41,320 bases of DNA from Eubacterium sp. (lineage in GTDB: Bacteria > Bacillota > Clostridia > Lachnospirales > Lachnospiraceae): the NCBI GenBank assembly GCA_024697845.1, contig JAILRZ010000055.1, positions 1 to 41,320 on the forward strand. Direction: 5' to 3'. Below the pieces are notes generated by a model that saw nothing but the letters and a program-made list of their open reading frames with translations, was not told the DNA's origin and did not search any database. Position numbers and translations under genes: made by a program. Positions 10,987 to 40,786 of this stretch are shown piece by piece; position 1 is the first letter of the stretch, and the number at the start of each line of letters is the position of its first letter.

Positions 10987-11580
10987 GTGAATATAATTTT
11001 AGCTTCAAAATCTCCTAGACGTAAAGAACTATTGGAACGTTTGGGGCTGGATTTTGAAATTGTTGTTTCGGATGTGGATGAGAATATTGAAGAAAACCAG
11101 CCGGAAAACTATGCAGAAGAACTGGCTTTTCGAAAGGCAATGGCTGTGATGGATCAGATGATTGAACAGGATCGGGAAAAAGATTATCTGGTAATTGGCG
11201 CTGATACCATCGTAGTGTCTCAGGAGCAGATTCTTGGAAAACCAAAGACAAAGGAAGAAGCGGTGGCAATGATTACAATGCTTCAGGGAAACAGTCATTT
11301 TGTGTTTACCGGAGTGTCGGTAGGTGTTTATAAGAAACAGACGAAACGAATCATGCAGACATCTTTTGTGGAAGGAACACAGGTGACAATTTTCCCAATG
11401 AGTCCTGAGGAAATTCAAGCCTATGTGGATACCGGAGATTGTATGGATAAGGCTGGAGCCTATGGAATTCAGGGTGTTTTTGGAAAATACGTGGAAATGA
11501 TTCACGGAGATTATAATAATGTGGTAGGACTTCCAATCGGAAGACTGAACCAGGTACTGAAGGGATTGGCAAAATTATGA
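10987..11580 (+). CDS. maf: Maf-like nucleoside triphosphate pyrophosphatase
   Basis: MNIILASKSPRRKELLERLGLDFEIVVSDVDE; KAGAYGIQG; GDYNNVVGLP. Confidence 0.93.
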   Translation: MNIILASKSPRRKELLERLGLDFEIVVSDVDENIEENQPENYAEELAFRKAMAVMDQMIEQDREKDYLVIGADTIVVSQEQILGKPKTKEEAVAMITMLQGNSHFVFTGVSVGVYKKQTKRIMQTSFVEGTQVTIFPMSPEEIQAYVDTGDCMDKAGAYGIQGVFGKYVEMIHGDYNNVVGLPIGRLNQVLKGLAKL

Positions 11581-12053
11581 AAAAACAGGAAAAAACAAAT
11601 GTAATGAGAGTATTAGACAGTAAGAAAATATCTTACAAGGAATACTATTACGGGGATACTGAAGCCATTAGTGGAGTGGAAGTTACAGAAGCTTTGGGAC
11701 AAAACCCGGAAAAAGTCTATAAGACGCTGGTAACTACAGGAAAGAGCAAAACACATTATGTGTTTATGATTCCGGTAGCAGAAGAACTGGATTTGAAAAA
11801 AGCAGCAAAAGCGGTAGGAGAGAAGTCTATTGAGATGCTGAAGTCCAAAGAACTGCTGGGACTTACCGGATATATTCATGGGGGATGTTCTCCCATTGGA
11901 ATGAAAAAGTTGTTCAAGACAACGATTCAGGAGGGCGCAGATCAATTTGAAACAATTATGTTTAGCGGAGGCAAAATCGGGTTTCAGGTAGAACTGCCTT
12001 TTGAAGATTTAAGGAAAGTAATTCCGGTGGAAACAGCGGATTTATGCAAATAA
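11577..12053 (+). CDS. ybaK: YbaK/EbsC-type Cys-tRNA(Pro) deacylase
   Basis: VYKTLVTTGKSKTHYVFMIPVAEELDLKKAAKAVGEKSIEML, GYIHGGCSPIGMKK. Confidence 0.88.
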   Translation: MKKQEKTNVMRVLDSKKISYKEYYYGDTEAISGVEVTEALGQNPEKVYKTLVTTGKSKTHYVFMIPVAEELDLKKAAKAVGEKSIEMLKSKELLGLTGYIHGGCSPIGMKKLFKTTIQEGADQFETIMFSGGKIGFQVELPFEDLRKVIPVETADLCK

Positions 12054-21590: not shown

Positions 21591-23036
21591 ATGGCAGGAG
21601 TACAGTATTCTGGCGTGCGGGAAAGCAGGCCGGGACGATTTAATGATTTAGGAACTACAGGAAAGGAAGCGGAAGAACAGTTTCGAAAAGGATGTCTAAA
21701 GAGGGCAGACAGAAGTTTTGCACAGGGACTTCAGTGTCAGCAGATTAATAGTATGGCAGCTTTAATGTCATTGGAAGATTCGGTTTTTATCTCCCATTCT
21801 CCACAGGGATGTGTGGGCTGTGCCATTATGGCTGTTGACATGTATCGTGTTGGCCAGATTCATCGCGGAATTAAGCACGTGAAAAATCCACGATTATTTG
21901 TCACGAACATTGACCAGAAAAGTGTGGTGTTTGGTGGCGAACAGAAACTGAGAGATACCGTAAAGAAGGCAGTGGACCGATATCATCCAAAGCTGGCATT
22001 TATTTACGCTTCTTGTGCTTCAGGAATTATCGGGGATGATATTGATGCTATAGCAGCAGATTTACAGATGGAATATCCGGATACGGTTTTGGTGCCGATT
22101 CATTGTGAAGGATTTAAATCCAAAATATGTGCATCAGGTTTTGATGCGGCATTTATTTCCATTAATAAATATATTCTGAAAAAGGAAAATATTCCAAAGG
22201 AAAAAGGGTTGGTAAATCTTTTTGCACCAACAACGGTAAGCTTCGCAGATCAGAAAGAAATGGAGCGAATGCTGAATCAGTTAGGGGTTCAGGTAAACTA
22301 TATTCCGTTTTATAGTTCGCTGGAAAAAATCAAGAGAATTCCGGCAGCGGAAGCATCCACATCGATATGTAAGGTATTTGCCGATGAATTCATGAAAACA
22401 TTATGGGAGGATTACCAGATTCCGTATTCTCATACTGTGATGCCAATTGGAATCCGAAATACAGACAAATGGTATCGGGGAATTGCAAAAGTTCTTGGAA
22501 AAGAAAAAGAAGTAGAAGAAATCATTGCAAAAGAGCATGAACGAATTGAACCTCTGGTTGCAGCATTAAGGGAAAGACTTCAAGGAACAAGAGTATTTAT
22601 CTGTGGTGGAACGGGACGTTCCTTTGCAGCCGCAGCATTGATTGATGATTTTGGAATGGAACTGGTAGGTCTCGAAACACCAACCTATGATGAAGATGCC
22701 CAAGTGGATATTGAATATCTCAATGGGATTCATAAAGATTATGTGGTGGATATTGCGAATATGCAACCGTTCGAACAGGTAAATCTGGTAAACAAACTGA
22801 AGCCGGATGCATTTATTGGAGTGCCGGAGTGGGCTGCAAAATTAGGAGTTCCGACGACCCATGTATTGGATGGGAAACGACCAACCATGGGCTATGACGG
22901 ATTGTTGTTTTTAGGAAATAAAATTGCGGATCAGTTACAAAATCCAGGATTTAACAAGAAATTGGCAAAGCATGTGAAATTGCCATACAGAGATTCCTGG
23001 TATGAAGAAGATGCATTTAAATATATTCAAGAATAG
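21591..23036 (+). CDS. Nitrogenase-like alpha subunit (NifD/NifE superfamily), pair 1
   Basis: HSPQGCVGC, YASCASGIIGDDI, IHCEGFKSKI, STSICKVFADEFMKTLWEDYQIPY, TMGYDGLLFLGNKI; SD aggaggagc. Confidence 0.88.
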   Translation: MAGVQYSGVRESRPGRFNDLGTTGKEAEEQFRKGCLKRADRSFAQGLQCQQINSMAALMSLEDSVFISHSPQGCVGCAIMAVDMYRVGQIHRGIKHVKNPRLFVTNIDQKSVVFGGEQKLRDTVKKAVDRYHPKLAFIYASCASGIIGDDIDAIAADLQMEYPDTVLVPIHCEGFKSKICASGFDAAFISINKYILKKENIPKEKGLVNLFAPTTVSFADQKEMERMLNQLGVQVNYIPFYSSLEKIKRIPAAEASTSICKVFADEFMKTLWEDYQIPYSHTVMPIGIRNTDKWYRGIAKVLGKEKEVEEIIAKEHERIEPLVAALRERLQGTRVFICGGTGRSFAAAALIDDFGMELVGLETPTYDEDAQVDIEYLNGIHKDYVVDIANMQPFEQVNLVNKLKPDAFIGVPEWAAKLGVPTTHVLDGKRPTMGYDGLLFLGNKIADQLQNPGFNKKLAKHVKLPYRDSWYEEDAFKYIQE

Positions 23037-23087
23037 AAAACGAATAAAAAATTTCAAAATTTGAAGAAGAAAGGATGGAAGATAGAG

Positions 23088-24377
23088 ATGTCACAGATTA
23101 TGGAAAATCCAAAGGGTGGTTGCGTATTGGCAGGCATTAATTCGGTATTAGGTGCTATTGACAAAGTATGTCCCATTTATCATTCAGGACCGGGATGCTG
23201 TATGCAGACCACAGCAGCGGACCAGGGACAATCAGGACACAAGAGTTCTTGTTTTGTAAGCAGTGTATCTATGCCCTCCAGCAATATGCTTGAAAAAGAA
23301 GTTGTATTTGGTGGAACAGATAAACTTAGAACAACAATTCAGGGAGCGATTGATATTATTGATGCAGAAGCGTATTTTGTATTGACCGGGTGTACGGCAG
23401 GTATTATTGGGGATGATATTGTCAGTGTAACAGAGGAGTTTAATAACAAAGGACATCATGTTTATCCAATTGAAACACCGGGATTTGCAGGAGATAGTAA
23501 TCTGGGATATGAAGTCGTGTGGAATACCATGATTGATCAAGTGATTGAAAAGGATGTACCAAAGGATGAAAAGCTTGTTAATATTTTCGGAATTGTTCCA
23601 TATCATGACCCGTTCTGGAGTGGAACCTTGGAGGAAATCGACAGGATTCTTTCCCAATTGGGATTAAAGGTAAATACATTTTTCACAAAACATCAGGGAA
23701 TGGAGACGATTCGAAAATGTTCCGGAGCTGCATTAAATATTATAGTTAATCCATGGCTGTTTCAAGGGCCGGCTAAGAAATTTGAAAAGAAATTTGGTGT
23801 TCCAAGTCTTCGCATTCCGGGACTATTTACCGGTGCAACGGATACAACGAAATTTGTCAGGGCAGTGGGTGAAGCTTTAGACCTGGATCAGAAATTGATA
23901 GAGAGTGTGATTGATTCCGAGGAAGATTATGTTTATCAGTATTTGGCACAGGCGATTGGCGTTGTGAGTTGGAAGCGATTCGCAGTAGTAGCAGATGCAA
24001 ATAACGCAGTGGGCTTTACAAGATATTTGGCAAATGATTTCAGCTTTACCCCTGTACTGGTGATTGTTTCAGAACCAATTTTCCGAGAGGAAGACAAGGA
24101 GCGGATTATTGCGGAAATACAGGATTTGGAATATGCTGTGCCACCAAAGGTGCTGTTTTTAACAGATCAGTATGAAATTAATCAGGCTATTCGAAATGAA
24201 AAAAAGGAAATAACACTTTTAGTGGGAAGCAGCAATGAGAGAGAGATTGCTCTTGAGAAAGATATACAGTTTATCCTTGGAGCATTTCCGATGAATGAGC
24301 GTTTAGTCTTTAATCGAACCTATGCAGGATACCGGGGAAGTCTCACCTTCACGGAAGATATTTATGATAATAATTAA
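23088..24377 (+). CDS. Nitrogenase-like beta subunit (NifK/NifN superfamily), pair 1
   Basis: PKGGCVLAGI, IYHSGPGCCMQ, VLTGCTAGIIGDDI; ATG 23088 suggested (track starts at 23061). Confidence 0.87.
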   Translation: MSQIMENPKGGCVLAGINSVLGAIDKVCPIYHSGPGCCMQTTAADQGQSGHKSSCFVSSVSMPSSNMLEKEVVFGGTDKLRTTIQGAIDIIDAEAYFVLTGCTAGIIGDDIVSVTEEFNNKGHHVYPIETPGFAGDSNLGYEVVWNTMIDQVIEKDVPKDEKLVNIFGIVPYHDPFWSGTLEEIDRILSQLGLKVNTFFTKHQGMETIRKCSGAALNIIVNPWLFQGPAKKFEKKFGVPSLRIPGLFTGATDTTKFVRAVGEALDLDQKLIESVIDSEEDYVYQYLAQAIGVVSWKRFAVVADANNAVGFTRYLANDFSFTPVLVIVSEPIFREEDKERIIAEIQDLEYAVPPKVLFLTDQYEINQAIRNEKKEITLLVGSSNEREIALEKDIQFILGAFPMNERLVFNRTYAGYRGSLTFTEDIYDNN

Positions 24378-32276: not shown

Positions 32277-33212
32277 ATGAGTGAAATTAAAGAAAGTGCT
32301 GTGGAGTTGATTGGACAGACTCCGATTTTGAAATTGAACAAGTACTCTGAAAAAAGAAATATTACAGAGGCTACCGTATTAGCAAAATTGGAATATTTAA
32401 ATCCGGCAGGATCTGTTAAGGATCGAATTGCTCAGGCAATGATTGAAGATGCAGAAGAACAGGGATTATTAAAGCCGGGAGCAACAATTATTGAACCAAC
32501 CAGTGGTAATACAGGAATTGGTCTTGCAGCTGTTGCAGCAGCAAAGGGCTACAAAGCAGTATTAACACTGCCGGATACGATGAGTGTTGAAAGAAGAAAT
32601 CTTTTGAAGGCGTATGGTGCAGAACTTGTTTTGACAGAAGGTGCAAAAGGAATGAAGGGGGCTATTGCCAAGGCAGAAGAATTAAATCAGGAAATTGAAG
32701 GTTCCGTAATTTTAGGACAGTTTATTAATCCGGCAAATCCAAAAGTACATAAGAAGACTACAGGTCCTGAAATTTGGAAACAGACAGAAGGAAAGGTTGA
32801 CATTTTTATTGCCGGTGTAGGAACTGGCGGAACAATCACAGGAGTTGGAGAATACCTTAAGGAACAGAATCCAAACGTGAAAGTAGTTGCTGTTGAACCT
32901 GCAAGTAGTGCAGTTCTTTCCACAGGAACTCCGGGAGCACATAAGATTCAGGGAATTGGAGCTGGATTTGTTCCGGAAGTGTTAAATACAAAAGTATACG
33001 ATGAAATCATTCCAATTGAAAATGATGATGCGTTTAAAGAAGGAAAAGAATTTGCTTTGTCTGAAGGAATTTTAGTTGGTATTTCTTCCGGAGCGGCGTT
33101 AAAGGCAGCAGAAATTCTGGCAAAGAGACCGGAAAACAAAGGGAAGACCATTGTGGCATTATTGCCGGATTCCGGAGACCGTTATCTGTCTACTCCGTTA
33201 TTTAACAATTAA
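32277..33212 (+). CDS. cysK: Cysteine synthase (canonical CysK-like, island copy)
   Basis: [54 protein letters not shown] aggagg. Confidence 0.93.
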
Positions 33213-33246
33213 AATAATACAAAGAGTTCCTTGAACTCTTTGCAAT

Positions 33247-33316
33247 GATGCCGTAGCCGCAGGAATGGCATAGGCCCGCAAAGCCGAAGTTGTTGGTTCG
33301 AGTCCAATCGGTATCA
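33247..33316 (+). tRNA. Divergent tRNA-Cys(GCA)-like gene
   Basis: Hand-folded 70-nt cloverleaf: acceptor GATGCCG/CGGTATC, D arm GCCG-CAGGAA-TGGC, anticodon arm TAGGC-CC(GCA)AA-GCCGA, T arm GTTGG-TTCGAGT-CCAAT; deviations C33, C14, A73; no encoded CCA. Confidence 0.72.
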
Positions 33317-33358
33317 TTCGTGACGAAATAAGTCACAAAAAAAGAAAGAAGGTGTCGC

Positions 33359-34223
33359 ATGAGTAATACATACAAAGATTTGCAGAATTCTCATCCGTGC
33401 TTTGGAGGACATAAGAATAATGCCGGTAGAATTCATTTGCCGGTGAGTCCCGGATGTAATATTGCATGTAAATTTTGTGATCGCACAGTAAATGATGTAG
33501 AAGAAAGACCAGGCGTTACTTCGAAGATATTGAAACCGGAAGAAAGTGTGGAAATACTACGAAAGGCTTTAGATATATGCCCGGATATCAAAGTGGCAGG
33601 AATTGCCGGACCGGGAGATACGCTGGCGTCAGATAATGCACTGAATACATTTCGGATTATTAAGGAAAACTATCCGGAACTAATTAAATGTATGAGCACC
33701 AACGGACTATTGTTAAGTGAAAGAGCCGAGGAAATAATTGAGGTAGGAATTGATTCATTGACGGTGACCGTTAATGCGGTAGACCCTGAAATTGAAAGTC
33801 AGTTAAATGATTACATTATTTATCATGGTGAAAAAATAGAGGGTGTTGAAGGTGCAAAAATATTGATAAAAAATCAGTTAGAGGGAATCCGAAAACTTGC
33901 CGCAGCCGGTATTACGGTAAAGATTAATACGGTATTAGTTCCGGAAATTAATGGAGATCATATTGAAGAAATTGCAAAAACTGTAAAGGAAGCAGGTGCA
34001 AGCATCTACAATATAATTCCGCTGATTCCACAGCATAAACTGAAGGACTGTAAGGCTCCTGTCTGTGCGGAAATTGATGCTGCCAGAACAAAAGCATCCA
34101 AGTATGTGGATGTGTTCAGACATTGCCAGCATTGTCGCGCAGATGCAGTAGGAGTACCTGGAAAGTCTGAGTTTGGAGACCAGATTTATCAGAGGAGATT
34201 GAATGTAAAGGAGACATTTTCTC

Positions 34224-34231
<8 letters not shown>
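33359..34231 (+). CDS. nifB: NifB-like radical SAM cofactor maturase (no NifX domain)
   Basis: HPCFGGHKNNAGRIHLPVSPGCNIACKFCDRTVNDVEERPGVTS; CxxxCxxC; C-terminal HCQHCRADAVG. Confidence 0.92.
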
Positions 34232-35446
<1,215 letters not shown>

Positions 35447-35460
35447 GGAGAAGAAACATT

Positions 35461-36459
35461 ATGAGTAAGGTAAATAAATCAATCACAGAACTTGTGGGAA
35501 AAACACCCCTTTTAGAATTAGTAAATTATGAAAAGAAACATAACTTAGAAGCAAAGATTTTGGTAAAACTAGAATACTTTAATCCAAACCAGAGTGTTAA
35601 GGACCGTATTGCATTGTCTATGATTGAAGATGCAGAAAAGAAGGGTCTGTTAAAGCCGGGATATACAGTTGTTGAAACAACCAGTGGAAATACAGGAATC
35701 GGCTTAGCAGCCATTGCAGCAGCAAAAGGATACAAGTTCCGAGTATATGTACAGGACAATGTAAGTAAAGAACGATTCCAGGTAATTAAAGCATTCGGTG
35801 GAGAAACAATTAAACTGTCAGAAGAACCGGCAGTTGCACGTGTATTGGCAGAAACAAACGGTGATTTTGTTGCAGCGATTGCAGCACTTCGTGAAGAAGT
35901 ATTGTCCAAAGAAACAGGAATTTTCTTTGTAGATCAGACATCGAACCCAGCCAATCCGGCTGTTCATGAATTAACAACAGGTCCGGAAATCTGGGAAGAT
36001 ACCGAAGGAAATGTAGATATTTTTGTAGCAAATGTTGGTACAGGTGGAACAGTATCCGGTACCGGTAAATATTTGAAGAGCAAAAACCCTGATGTCAAGG
36101 TTGTAGCAATTCAGCCGGGAGCAAACTCATTGCCAAGTGATACAAATCCGGAACCGGAAGAAATTACCGGAGTACATCCATTTGAAGGCGTTCCGGCAGA
36201 AAGAGTTCCTTCCACAATGAACTTAAATATTTATGATGAAAAGCTCGAAGTCGAAACCATTGAAGCCTATCGAGCTGCCAGAGAAGTTGCTAAAACAGAT
36301 GGTATTTTAATTGGTACATCATCCGGTGGTGCAATTCACGCGGCAACTGTATTGGCAAAACGTCCGGAAAACAAAGGAAAGACAATTGTTGCAGTTCTTC
36401 CGGATACAGGTCTCAGATACCTGACTACAAATTTATTTAATGAAGAATATCAAGGATAG
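35461..36459 (+). CDS. CysK-fold PLP enzyme (divergent, island copy 3)
   Basis: VKLEYFNPNQSVKDRIA (NPNQS instead of NPAGS), [34 protein letters not shown]; about 20-aa insertion after IKLSEEP. Confidence 0.87.
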   Translation: MSKVNKSITELVGKTPLLELVNYEKKHNLEAKILVKLEYFNPNQSVKDRIALSMIEDAEKKGLLKPGYTVVETTSGNTGIGLAAIAAAKGYKFRVYVQDNVSKERFQVIKAFGGETIKLSEEPAVARVLAETNGDFVAAIAALREEVLSKETGIFFVDQTSNPANPAVHELTTGPEIWEDTEGNVDIFVANVGTGGTVSGTGKYLKSKNPDVKVVAIQPGANSLPSDTNPEPEEITGVHPFEGVPAERVPSTMNLNIYDEKLEVETIEAYRAAREVAKTDGILIGTSSGGAIHAATVLAKRPENKGKTIVAVLPDTGLRYLTTNLFNEEYQG

Positions 36460-36470
36460 AGGTGGAGGAA

Positions 36471-37937
36471 ATGGCTATAAATTTAAGCAACTCAAATTTG
36501 GCTACAAGAGAAAACCGTATTGGTTCCATAACCGGATATGTAGGTTCTCTGAAAGATTTGGCAGAGCAGAGTGAGTGTGGAACTCTGAAGGGATGTTCCA
36601 GATGTTTCTCACAGTCCAGTTCCTGTCTTTCTAGTTGTGCGTTAGGTCAGCTGGCAGGAATCCGTGATGTGGCAGTGATTCATCATGGACCGGCTGGATG
36701 TTCTGTGGCAGCATCCAGTGCTTATTACATGTCCAGAGTAATGTCGAAAAAGAGAGGGGTTACTAGCGATACTGTTTATGTTGGAACAGATATGAATGAA
36801 AATGATACAATTTTCGGCTCTACAGAAACCCTTCGGAATGTCATTCTTCAGGTCAATGAACGATATTCTCCAAAGGCAATCTTCGTATCAAGCTCCTGTG
36901 CGACAGGAATTATCGGGGAAGATATCGACAGCATTGTGGATGAAGTAAGGGAGGAAGTAGATGTTCCGATTGTGGCGGTTCATTGTGAAGGATTTAAGTC
37001 TAGAATCTGGGCGACAGGATTTGATATTTCAGATCATGCTGTATTGCAGGAAATTGTTCAGCCACCAAGAGAAGGGGTTAAGACCAACAAGATTAACTTT
37101 AAGAACTTCTTTGAAAGTGCCAGACCGGAAATTATCGAAATGTTTAAGAACTTTGATTTGGAACCGGTATTCTTATACTGTAACTCTACAATCGAAGAAT
37201 TGTCTCATCTTTCAGAAAGTCTTGCAACCACATGTATCTGTGGAACGTTAGGAAACTACCTTGGAAATGCATTGGAAGAGAAATACGGTGTTCCTTACGT
37301 AAGAAGTATCAATCAGTGTGGAATCAAGGGCTTTGAGGCATGGTTACGTGAAATTGGTAAGGTGACTGGAAGAAGCGAAAGTATTGAAAAATACATCGAA
37401 GAACAAAGAGCAATTTATATTCCACAGATTGAAGAAGTAAAGAAGGAACTTCAGGGCTTGACGGCAGTTCTCGGTATGGGACCGGGCTACACCTTTGAAG
37501 TATCCCGAGTATTGGATGAATTGGGAATTAAAGTAGACTGGGCTTTGGCATGGCACTATGACAAGAAGTATGAGAATGGTGATGTGCCACCATCCATGAA
37601 ATATTTATTGGACAATGATATTGATTTCGAAACCAGCGTGGCAGATCAGCAGAATTATGAAGTGATGAATATTCTAAATAAGTATCAGCCGGATTTATAT
37701 TTATCACGTCATCCGGGTTCTACCGTTTGGGCAATCAAGAACGGAACTCCTGCAGTCTATGTTGCTGATGAGTATATGATTTTTGGATATAAACATACAT
37801 TAGAATTCGCTAAGACAATTGTTGATGCGATTAAAAACAGAAGTTTTGAAGAAAATCTTGCAAAGAGAACAAAACTTCCGTATACGGATTGGTGGTATGA
37901 TCAGGACGTAGATACATTCTTAGAGGAGGCAAAATAA
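36471..37937 (+). CDS. Nitrogenase-like alpha subunit (NifD superfamily), pair 2
   Basis: GCSRCFSQSSSCLSSCALGQ, IHHGPAGCSVAAS, SSSCATGIIGEDI, VHCEGFKSRIWATGFD, CICGTLGNYLGNALEEKYGVPY; ATG 36471 suggested. Confidence 0.92.
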   Translation: MAINLSNSNLATRENRIGSITGYVGSLKDLAEQSECGTLKGCSRCFSQSSSCLSSCALGQLAGIRDVAVIHHGPAGCSVAASSAYYMSRVMSKKRGVTSDTVYVGTDMNENDTIFGSTETLRNVILQVNERYSPKAIFVSSSCATGIIGEDIDSIVDEVREEVDVPIVAVHCEGFKSRIWATGFDISDHAVLQEIVQPPREGVKTNKINFKNFFESARPEIIEMFKNFDLEPVFLYCNSTIEELSHLSESLATTCICGTLGNYLGNALEEKYGVPYVRSINQCGIKGFEAWLREIGKVTGRSESIEKYIEEQRAIYIPQIEEVKKELQGLTAVLGMGPGYTFEVSRVLDELGIKVDWALAWHYDKKYENGDVPPSMKYLLDNDIDFETSVADQQNYEVMNILNKYQPDLYLSRHPGSTVWAIKNGTPAVYVADEYMIFGYKHTLEFAKTIVDAIKNRSFEENLAKRTKLPYTDWWYDQDVDTFLEEAK

Positions 37938-39235
37938 TGGCAAAGTTATTAGATAAACAGAGATATAAGTGTGCTCTGGGAGCGATGCAGACTGTGCAGG
38001 CAATTGACCGTGCCCTGCCGATTCTTCACTCCGGTCCTGGATGTGCACAGAAACTTTCAGATACCACAGGAAGCTCAGGATATTTTTCTCCAAACATTTT
38101 TCCATGTACCAGTATTAACGAGAAAGATGTAGTTTTCGGTGGAGTGAAAAAATTAAATTCTACAATTGAAAATTCCTTAAAAGTAATTGATGCGGATTTA
38201 TATGTAGTACTTACCGGATGTATTCCTGAAATTGTAGGGGATGACTCCGGGGAAGTTGTCTCAAGGTTTGAGGATGCGGATAAGCCGGTACTTTATGCTC
38301 CAACAGCAGGATTTAAGGGAAATAACTACAAAGGTCATGAACAGGTTGTGGATGCAATCATTGATCAGTATCTTCAGAAATCTGACAAAACAGAAAAAGG
38401 ATTGGTAAACATCTGGGCAGATGTACCTTATCAGGATTTATTCTGGTTGGGTAACATCAGAGAATTAGAAAATCTGATTCGTGAAATTGGCCTTACACCA
38501 AACACAATTTTTGGATTCAAGCGAGGCATTGACAATATCAATAAAATACCGGAAGCAGAATTCAATCTTCTTGTATCTCCATGGGTAGGTCTTGGAAATA
38601 TGAAAAAGATGGAAAGAAAATTTGGAATTCCATATCTTCATTATCCAACCCTTCCAATCGGAGCAACAGAAACAAGCAAGTTTTTAAGAGAAGTCGGTAA
38701 ATTTGCCGGTGTTGATGAAGAAAAGGTTGAAGCAGTTATAAAAGAACATGAAGATTACTATTACTATTTAATTGAAAGATATGCAGATCTGTTCTTGGAA
38801 AACCGTGTCATCAACAAGCAGTTCACAGTTGTGGCAGATGCTCAGTATACACTTGGTGTAACAAAGTTCCTTGTAAACGATTTAGGACTAATCCCTGCAA
38901 AACAGTTTGTTGTGGATGATACGCCGAAAAAATACAGAGAACAGATTTCAGAGGAATTTAAGAAACTAAATTATGGAATTCAGGCAGATGTTTCTTTTGA
39001 AACAGACGGCTTTAAAATTCATGAAGAAATCAAAGAACACGACTATCATGGATATCCATTAGTACTTGGTGGTTATTATGAAAAGGAAGTAACGGAAGAA
39101 TTAAAAGGAAACTTCTTAAATATTTCATGGCCGGTACAGGATAAGGTAGTATTTGACAGTTTCTATGTTGGATACGCAGGTGGAATTCGCCTGATTGAAG
39201 ATATCTACACGGTAGCAGTACAGAGATTTAACTAA
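37937..39235 (+). CDS. Nitrogenase-like beta subunit (NifK superfamily), pair 2
   Basis: YKCALGAMQTVQAI, LHSGPGCAQK, VLTGCIPEIVGDD; start overlaps upstream stop (TAATG). Confidence 0.92.
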   Translation: MAKLLDKQRYKCALGAMQTVQAIDRALPILHSGPGCAQKLSDTTGSSGYFSPNIFPCTSINEKDVVFGGVKKLNSTIENSLKVIDADLYVVLTGCIPEIVGDDSGEVVSRFEDADKPVLYAPTAGFKGNNYKGHEQVVDAIIDQYLQKSDKTEKGLVNIWADVPYQDLFWLGNIRELENLIREIGLTPNTIFGFKRGIDNINKIPEAEFNLLVSPWVGLGNMKKMERKFGIPYLHYPTLPIGATETSKFLREVGKFAGVDEEKVEAVIKEHEDYYYYLIERYADLFLENRVINKQFTVVADAQYTLGVTKFLVNDLGLIPAKQFVVDDTPKKYREQISEEFKKLNYGIQADVSFETDGFKIHEEIKEHDYHGYPLVLGGYYEKEVTEELKGNFLNISWPVQDKVVFDSFYVGYAGGIRLIEDIYTVAVQRFN

Positions 39236-39760: not shown

Positions 39761-39889
39761 ATATTTAATTAAGGTTCCTATTATGGTAAACTGAGGACAA
39801 ATGATGACCTATGGGGAGGTTGTTCAACGATTACTGAATTGATTATGAGCAGTCAGAATGTCCGCGATAATCATAGAAAAGAGGGAAAA

Positions 39890-40786
39890 ATGACATTACA
39901 GCAGTTGAAATATATCGTAACTGTAGCGGAAACAGGGAATATTACAGAGGCGGCAAAACGCCTTTTTATTTCACAACCCAGCCTTACCAATGCTATTCGG
40001 GAACTGGAAAAGGAAATGCAGATCACTATTTTTAACAGAACGAACAAAGGGGTAATGATTTCTGATGATGGAAATCTGTTCCTGTCCTATGCCAGACAGG
40101 TACTGGAACAGGCGGATTTATTAGAAGAAAAGTTTCTCAATAAGAAAGAAACAAAACCGAGATTTTCCGTTTCCTGTCAGCATTATTCCTTTGCAGTAAA
40201 TGCCTTTGTGGATTTGATTCGAACCTTTGATGCAAATAAGTATGATTTTACGTTGCGGGAAACCCAGACCTTTGAAATCATTGAAGATGTGAGTCGAATG
40301 AAAAGTGAAATTGGGATTTTATACACTTCTTCAAAGAATGAGCAGGTGTTAATGAAATTGATGAAGCAGCATGAATTGGTCTTTGAGGAATTATTTGTGG
40401 CAAAGCCCCATGTATTTATCAATTCCAACCATCCATTGGCAAAGAAAAAATCTTTAACCTTGGAAGATTTGGAAGATTATCCATACCTTTCCTTTGAACA
40501 GGGGGAGTATAATTCCTTCTATTTTTCAGAGGAAATCTTAAGTACCTTGGACCGAAAGAAAAATATTAAAGTTCGCGATAGAGCGACATTGTTCAACTTG
40601 CTGATTGGATTAGACGGCTATACGGTGAGTTCCGGTGTGATTAGTAAAGAATTGAATGGGGAAAATATTATTGCCAAGCCACTGATGGTGGAGGAATATA
40701 TGAAGATTGGCACGATTACACAGAAGAATTCGACTTTAAGCAGATACGGAAAAGTGTATATGGAAGCGTTAAAAAAACATATCTGA
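39890..40786 (+). CDS. LysR-family transcriptional regulator (island regulator 2)
   Basis: MTLQQLKYIVTVAETGNITEAAKRLFISQPSLTNAIRELEKEMQITIFNR; ATG 39890 with GAGGG SD preferred over 39839. Confidence 0.92.
   Translation: MTLQQLKYIVTVAETGNITEAAKRLFISQPSLTNAIRELEKEMQITIFNRTNKGVMISDDGNLFLSYARQVLEQADLLEEKFLNKKETKPRFSVSCQHYSFAVNAFVDLIRTFDANKYDFTLRETQTFEIIEDVSRMKSEIGILYTSSKNEQVLMKLMKQHELVFEELFVAKPHVFINSNHPLAKKKSLTLEDLEDYPYLSFEQGEYNSFYFSEEILSTLDRKKNIKVRDRATLFNLLIGLDGYTVSSGVISKELNGENIIAKPLMVEEYMKIGTITQKNSTLSRYGKVYMEALKKHI

Follow-up and report, generated by a model that had tools for sequence, protein, structure and literature searches.

We identified, in the 41,320-nucleotide stretch of Eubacterium sp. 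DNA analysed here (hereafter the window), a divergent tRNA-Cys(GCA) gene that belongs to a strongly selected family of tRNA-Cys paralogues found in sulfur operons in general. In many gut and rumen bacteria, this conserved extra tRNA-Cys, from which the base most important to the cysteine-charging enzyme has been lost, lies within sulfur-scavenging and cysteine/methionine gene clusters, which suggests a special tRNA for sulfur scarcity rather than an ordinary spare.

The gene is located at 33247..33316 (+). RF00005 gives the sole Rfam match within the whole window (33247-33316, +; 45.3 bits, E 1.3e-6, full model 1-71), above the gathering cut-off of 29 bits, and ARAGORN calls a tRNA-Cys(gca) at 33246-33317. 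The covariance-model support and the 36 distinct homologues show that this tRNA-shaped RNA gene is real rather than a remnant, so that the original prediction was not refuted by the test it had named, a lack of such support together with a lack of conservation at orthologous loci. The Rfam model and direct reading of the sequence give arms of 7/5 and A73. Much of what the original prediction had described was found again on direct reading, i.e. the 7-bp acceptor stem, the GG within a short D loop, the GCA anticodon (also read by ARAGORN), C14, the A28.G42 mismatch and A73, the last three being expressions of family traits. Other peculiarities listed there proved less telling. C33 is present in the window copy but is a minority variant in the family (8/36 copies), and the lack of an encoded CCA, although correct, is not odd, as the ordinary tRNA-Cys genes of the host genome also lack it. 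The proposed 10-bp extension of the acceptor helix folds in the window, but the flanking bases of other copies often cannot pair and the extension is therefore window-specific.

As predicted, the tRNA lies between cysK, which ends at 33212, and nifB, which starts at 33359 (34 nt 3' of the former and 42 nt 5' of the latter). The upstream gene encodes an O-acetylserine sulfhydrylase (32277..33212, +; NCBIfam TIGR01139, 449 bits, above cut-off). From sequence and fold, the gap between cysK and the tRNA contains a 10-bp hairpin, CAAAGAGTTC-CTT-GAACTCTTTG (33220..33242, +), which has no U-tract or T-run and occupies the place of a terminator hairpin in other loci; a 5-bp hairpin, GTGAC/GTCAC (33320..33336, +), follows the tRNA on its 3' side. 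Downstream and on the same strand are genes encoding a NifB-like radical SAM protein in a short form without NifX domain (33359..34231; TIGR01290, 260.7 bits, below the equivalog cut-off of 343.65), a NifX-like protein (34224..34583; PF02579), a NifH-like reductase (34598..35446; TIGR01287, 466.9 bits), a CysK-like PLP enzyme (35461..36459; TIGR01136, 325.6 bits, slightly below cut-off), nitrogenase-like alpha (NflD-like, 36462..37937; TIGR01862, 157.5 bits, below cut-off) and beta (NflK-like, 37937..39235) subunits, and a LysR-family regulator (39839..40786). Sulfonate-type ABC transport genes, LysR regulators and CysK-like genes are also present in the island, together with two nitrogenase-like D/K pairs of differing types (21591-24377 and 36462-39235) whose D subunits are 31% identical. 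A protein with a YbaK-type aminoacyl-tRNA editing domain is encoded at 11577-12053, about 21 kb upstream of the tRNA and outside the sulfur operon, and is probably unrelated to it.

The conservation of the tRNA was examined in 80 named loci (designated L), chosen because they hold a relative of the window's NflD-like protein. The same 70-nt tRNA gene was found in 27 of them, upstream of nifB and, where cysK is upstream, between cysK and nifB, so that the divergent tRNA is conserved in homologous islands, as the original prediction had proposed to check. These 27 copies and that of the window align without gaps. Across the 28 copies, the cloverleaf is paired in 93.8% of alignment cells, both partners have changed in five stem pairs (slid controls gave 0-1), and no copy forms the 28-42 pair. 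A dedicated covariance model built from this alignment gave at least 91 bits to all 28 copies, vs. 40-44 bits to the ordinary tRNA-Cys of the host genome. With the same model, 17 of 397 sampled Lachnospiraceae genomes, including that of the host, were carriers (88-99 bits); ordinary tRNAs of these genomes reached about 54 bits at most, and one sequence was intermediate (58.7 bits). In a class-wide sample of 392 genomes, only one further copy was detected, and it is decayed. This copy belongs to another Clostridia family (L131:1501-1570, minus strand), has a GAA anticodon, has lost the GG of the D loop and lies upstream of nifH; a broken DUF2292 reading frame precedes it. When the 36 distinct copies are compared pairwise, the tRNA has a mean identity of 0.86, whereas that of the flanking 70 nt (0.58 and 0.62) is at the level of chance (0.57 in a shuffled control). 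The presence of the family is nevertheless scattered on the NifB tree, with about 14 changes of which at least four are forced, and in one locus (L096) just the first bases of the tRNA are left at its place. As fewer than half of the related islands carry the gene, and these are scattered on their tree, it is dispensable. Its carriage by mobile elements was rejected, no match being found in viral contigs or plasmids.

The original prediction had placed the tRNA in a nitrogenase-like operon, and this tie was not borne out. Five carriers have no close NflD (none at all in G339, G150, G014 and G365, and only a 29% relative in G153), and a tie to nitrogenase-like genes was rejected on this ground. 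In such carriers, the tRNA is found after cysK (L106), after a Cys/Met-metabolism PLP gene (L116), before cysK with a LysR gene upstream (L115), before DUF2292(yezD)-metK (L114), or before metK and an ABC permease gene (L117). Its orientation is that of the neighbouring genes in every case. The non-standard role that had been suggested in a cysteine/sulfur setting is thus supported, but not its attachment to the nitrogenase-like operon specifically. In the surrounding 10 kb, we found no gene family whose presence follows that of the tRNA, which speaks against a substrate of a tRNA-dependent modification, another of the roles first proposed. In many loci, the gene for a small conserved DUF2292 (YezD-type) protein adjoins the tRNA, lying between it and cysK in L022, L024, L040, L094 and others and also occurring at L114:1321-1464, but it is not next to the tRNA of the window. 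Two further purine-73 tRNA-Cys genes with a different core were noticed, one after a cystine-type transporter gene and before nifS (L087:14537-14610, in L087/L172), the other before JAB and ThiS/ThiF genes and near a SulP-type transporter gene (L118:1500-1571). They may represent either an older branch or a similar case that arose independently. In the open-access literature, we found no paper linking tRNACys with nitrogenase-like or nifB sulfur operons.

We then compared the family with ordinary tRNA-Cys. The search pattern by which the 36 distinct copies were gathered constrained positions 26-28 and parts of the D arm and left positions 14, 15, 20, 33-38, 42 and 73 free. Position 73 is A in 19 copies, G in 17 and never a pyrimidine, whereas U73 is present in 32 out of 32 ordinary tRNA-Cys genes examined, some of them from the same genomes. 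Position 14 is C (27 copies) or T (9 copies), position 15 can be any base, and the U8-A14 and 15-48 core of the ordinary genes is not found in the divergent family. The 28.42 mismatch is A.G in all 36 copies. G18G19 and the entire TTCGA T loop are invariant, A36-A37-A38 is conserved, and the anticodon is GCA in 34 copies and ACA in two (L050:6685-6754 and L115:1501-1570). Position 20 is mostly A (27/36), otherwise U or G, and the 4:69 pair is G:U in most nifB-linked copies and G-C in more distant ones. Cys identity depends mainly on U73 and the GCA anticodon, U73 alone being sufficient for it in minihelices, with additional determinants in core contacts (PMC9976931). Set beside these elements, the invariant and lost positions indicate that the elbow and the anticodon have been kept while the acceptor end and the core read by CysRS have been altered. 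The host genome (G000; 2.4 Mb, 210 contigs) also has the canonical tRNA-Cys that the original prediction had advised looking for, in the form of two U73 tRNA-Cys(GCA) genes, both without encoded CCA, and U73 tRNA-Cys was found in most other carrier genomes examined. Exactly one CysRS above cut-off was detected in each of the 15 genomes tested; a dedicated orthogonal tRNA/aaRS pair was rejected, since a second CysRS is absent.

A hairpin followed by a T-run was found by a strict script within 33 nt upstream of the tRNA in 17 of the 36 distinct copies. The T-run abuts the tRNA in three copies, and terminator-like hairpins end 0-10 nt 5' of the tRNA in several loci. A promoter would not fit into the interval between such a T-run and the tRNA, so that these copies are probably co-transcribed by read-through. 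A second RNA motif, [AG]CUGACUGGAmAACCrGAGG, recurs in the same islands. This motif folds into a small hairpin, sharing bases with the 5' arm of a terminator in some cases and lying ahead of a ribosome-binding site (Shine-Dalgarno) in others, e.g. at L022:6558, at L087:4864/13395/14485, and in L192, L193, L202 and others. Over 1.44 Mb, the motif gave 41 matches on the coding strand, one on the other strand and one for the reversed control; in Lachnospiraceae, 29 sites were found in 22 of 299 genomes, vs. four control matches. It precedes sulfate-/cystine-type transporter, CysK-like, NifB, NflD and sulfopropanediol-dehydratase-like genes, and also the divergent tRNA, often just 5' of it. The window itself lacks the motif. 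A search of seven loci against Rfam at relaxed thresholds, among them L022, which holds the motif, returned nothing matching it. The motif (attenuator written CUGACUGG) is a candidate for an uncatalogued sulfur-regulon attenuator.

The reading that we favour, although we place it somewhat below an even chance, is that of a tRNA-Cys paralogue of the sulfur regulon, sharing transcripts with sulfur genes, which we predict to receive little cysteine and to act in trans during sulfur shortage. The tRNA-Cys(GCA) paralogue would be transcribed together with genes of sulfur acquisition and of cysteine/methionine synthesis. Since CysRS recognises its substrate by U73 and the core in addition to the anticodon, the single CysRS of the cell would be expected to charge this purine-73 tRNA weakly, if it does so at all. 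Induction of the sulfur genes would then yield an under-charged Cys-type tRNA, which might occupy Cys codons or CysRS in trans and thereby add to the starvation signal or cut cysteine demand. Action in trans would fit with the fact that no linked gene family tracks the tRNA. Both weak cysteinylation and a trans role are predictions, and several points weigh against them. The family is found in a minority of the related islands, scattered on their tree, and the terminator link is not universal, the hairpin of the window having no U-tract. The CysRS of these bacteria might tolerate a purine at position 73, the identity rules being those of E. coli and yeast, and the exclusive presence of purines at this position could be partly a founder effect. 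With less assurance, we consider it possible that the tRNA is a starvation device, i.e. a tRNA-Cys paralogue that evolved to avoid normal cysteinylation under sulfur-gene control. Its induction would alter the reading or sensing of Cys codons cell-wide, either by acting uncharged as a codon-specific brake or by carrying a different amino acid and so sparing cysteine. U73 is a major and widely kept identity element of tRNA-Cys, and this family is consistently without it. If our reading is true, such a selected family, associated as it is with sulfur genes, would show in a natural setting what an inefficiently charged tRNA does, and might link sulfur supply directly to decoding. Charging and expression are directly measurable in cultured carriers (e.g. 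Eubacterium ruminantium ATCC 17233 and [Clostridium] polysaccharolyticum DSM 1801).

The strongest rival, which we regard as rather unlikely, is an auxiliary translational tRNA-Cys. The CysRS of this clade would accept purine-73 and load the RNA with cysteine, and co-expression would boost Cys decoding of the Fe-S proteins of sulfur operons. The sole CysRS is the obvious partner, and the conservation of GCA (34/36), A36-A37-A38, G18G19 and an intact T loop would agree with such a function. However, none of the 36 copies has retained the strongest CysRS determinant, which all 32 ordinary genes have, A14 and a fixed base at position 15 are lost as well, and C33 (8/36) and A34 (2/36) are poor for decoding.

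We consider it improbable that the tRNA is a cis-acting processing element, at which RNase P and RNase Z would cut the cysK-nifB transcript and protect the new ends. An anticodon is not needed for this purpose, but the family has conserved its anticodon arm together with GCA and the 28.42 mismatch, and the tRNA also adjoins quite different sulfur genes; the terminator-like hairpins 0-10 nt 5' of the tRNA in several loci and the co-directionality in all loci would agree with it. Quite improbable, too, is deliberate charging with another amino acid, by which Cys codons would be read without spending cysteine in sulfur shortage. G4:U69 tRNAs undergo Ala mischarging, and most nifB-linked copies resemble them in this pair. 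Alanine mischarging by this route was rejected, the pair being G-C in the most distant copies. Bacterial Arg identity (PMC9976931) has elements in common with purine-73, C35 and the frequent A20 (27/36), but nine of the 36 copies have U or G at position 20 and no aaRS is encoded in the operon. An aminoacyl donor to a non-ribosomal enzyme, such as a tRNA-dependent CysK-like PLP step or a peptide ligase, is very improbable: although several CysK-like enzymes are encoded in the island and there are precedents for tRNAs withdrawn from translation (PMC4052509), none of the gene families within 10 kb follows the tRNA, and the five genomes without close NflD have ordinary metK, cysK or Cys/Met-PLP neighbours. 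The cysteine-status sensor first suggested is unlikely to be of the T-box type, since Rfam detects no T-box in the window and no Cys T-box was found in G000, G297 and G153, where the inspected T-boxes precede mainly aaRS, Leu and Trp genes and in no case a gene recognised as a cysteine gene. Finally, a degenerate tRNA or integration-site remnant, a state illustrated by the decayed L131 copy outside the family (GAA, D-loop GG lost), is ruled out by strong conservation and covariation between flanks at chance level, and by the invariable orientation.

Several known systems are relatives in kind of the divergent tRNA, but none has its features. It shares the cloverleaf, GCA and the GCC/GGC D stem with the canonical bacterial tRNA-Cys(GCA), and common ancestry is evident in the D and anticodon arms; it differs by purine-73 instead of U73, the loss of A14, any base at position 15, A28.G42 and its location in sulfur operons. 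The tRNAOther pseudo-tRNA of Bacillus cereus is likewise a divergent tRNA-like gene, and is thought to act outside translation in connection with stress (PMC3399842). As in that case, the divergent tRNA is a tRNA-like gene existing beside normal isoacceptors; tRNAOther, however, flanks a pathogenicity island and answers to iron, whereas the divergent tRNA lies inside sulfur operons and has kept GCA. The non-proteinogenic tRNA-Gly of Staphylococcus aureus (PMC4052509) are also extra isoacceptors, altered to leave translation through the loss of G18G19 and weak EF-Tu pairs, while G18G19 is invariant in the divergent tRNA-Cys. The selC* tRNA-Cys (PMC7609411) is another unusual extra tRNA-Cys of anaerobes, including Firmicutes, but it combines Sec-like 8/4 arms with a conserved U73, in contrast to the ordinary 7/5 arms and the A73 of the tRNA in the window.
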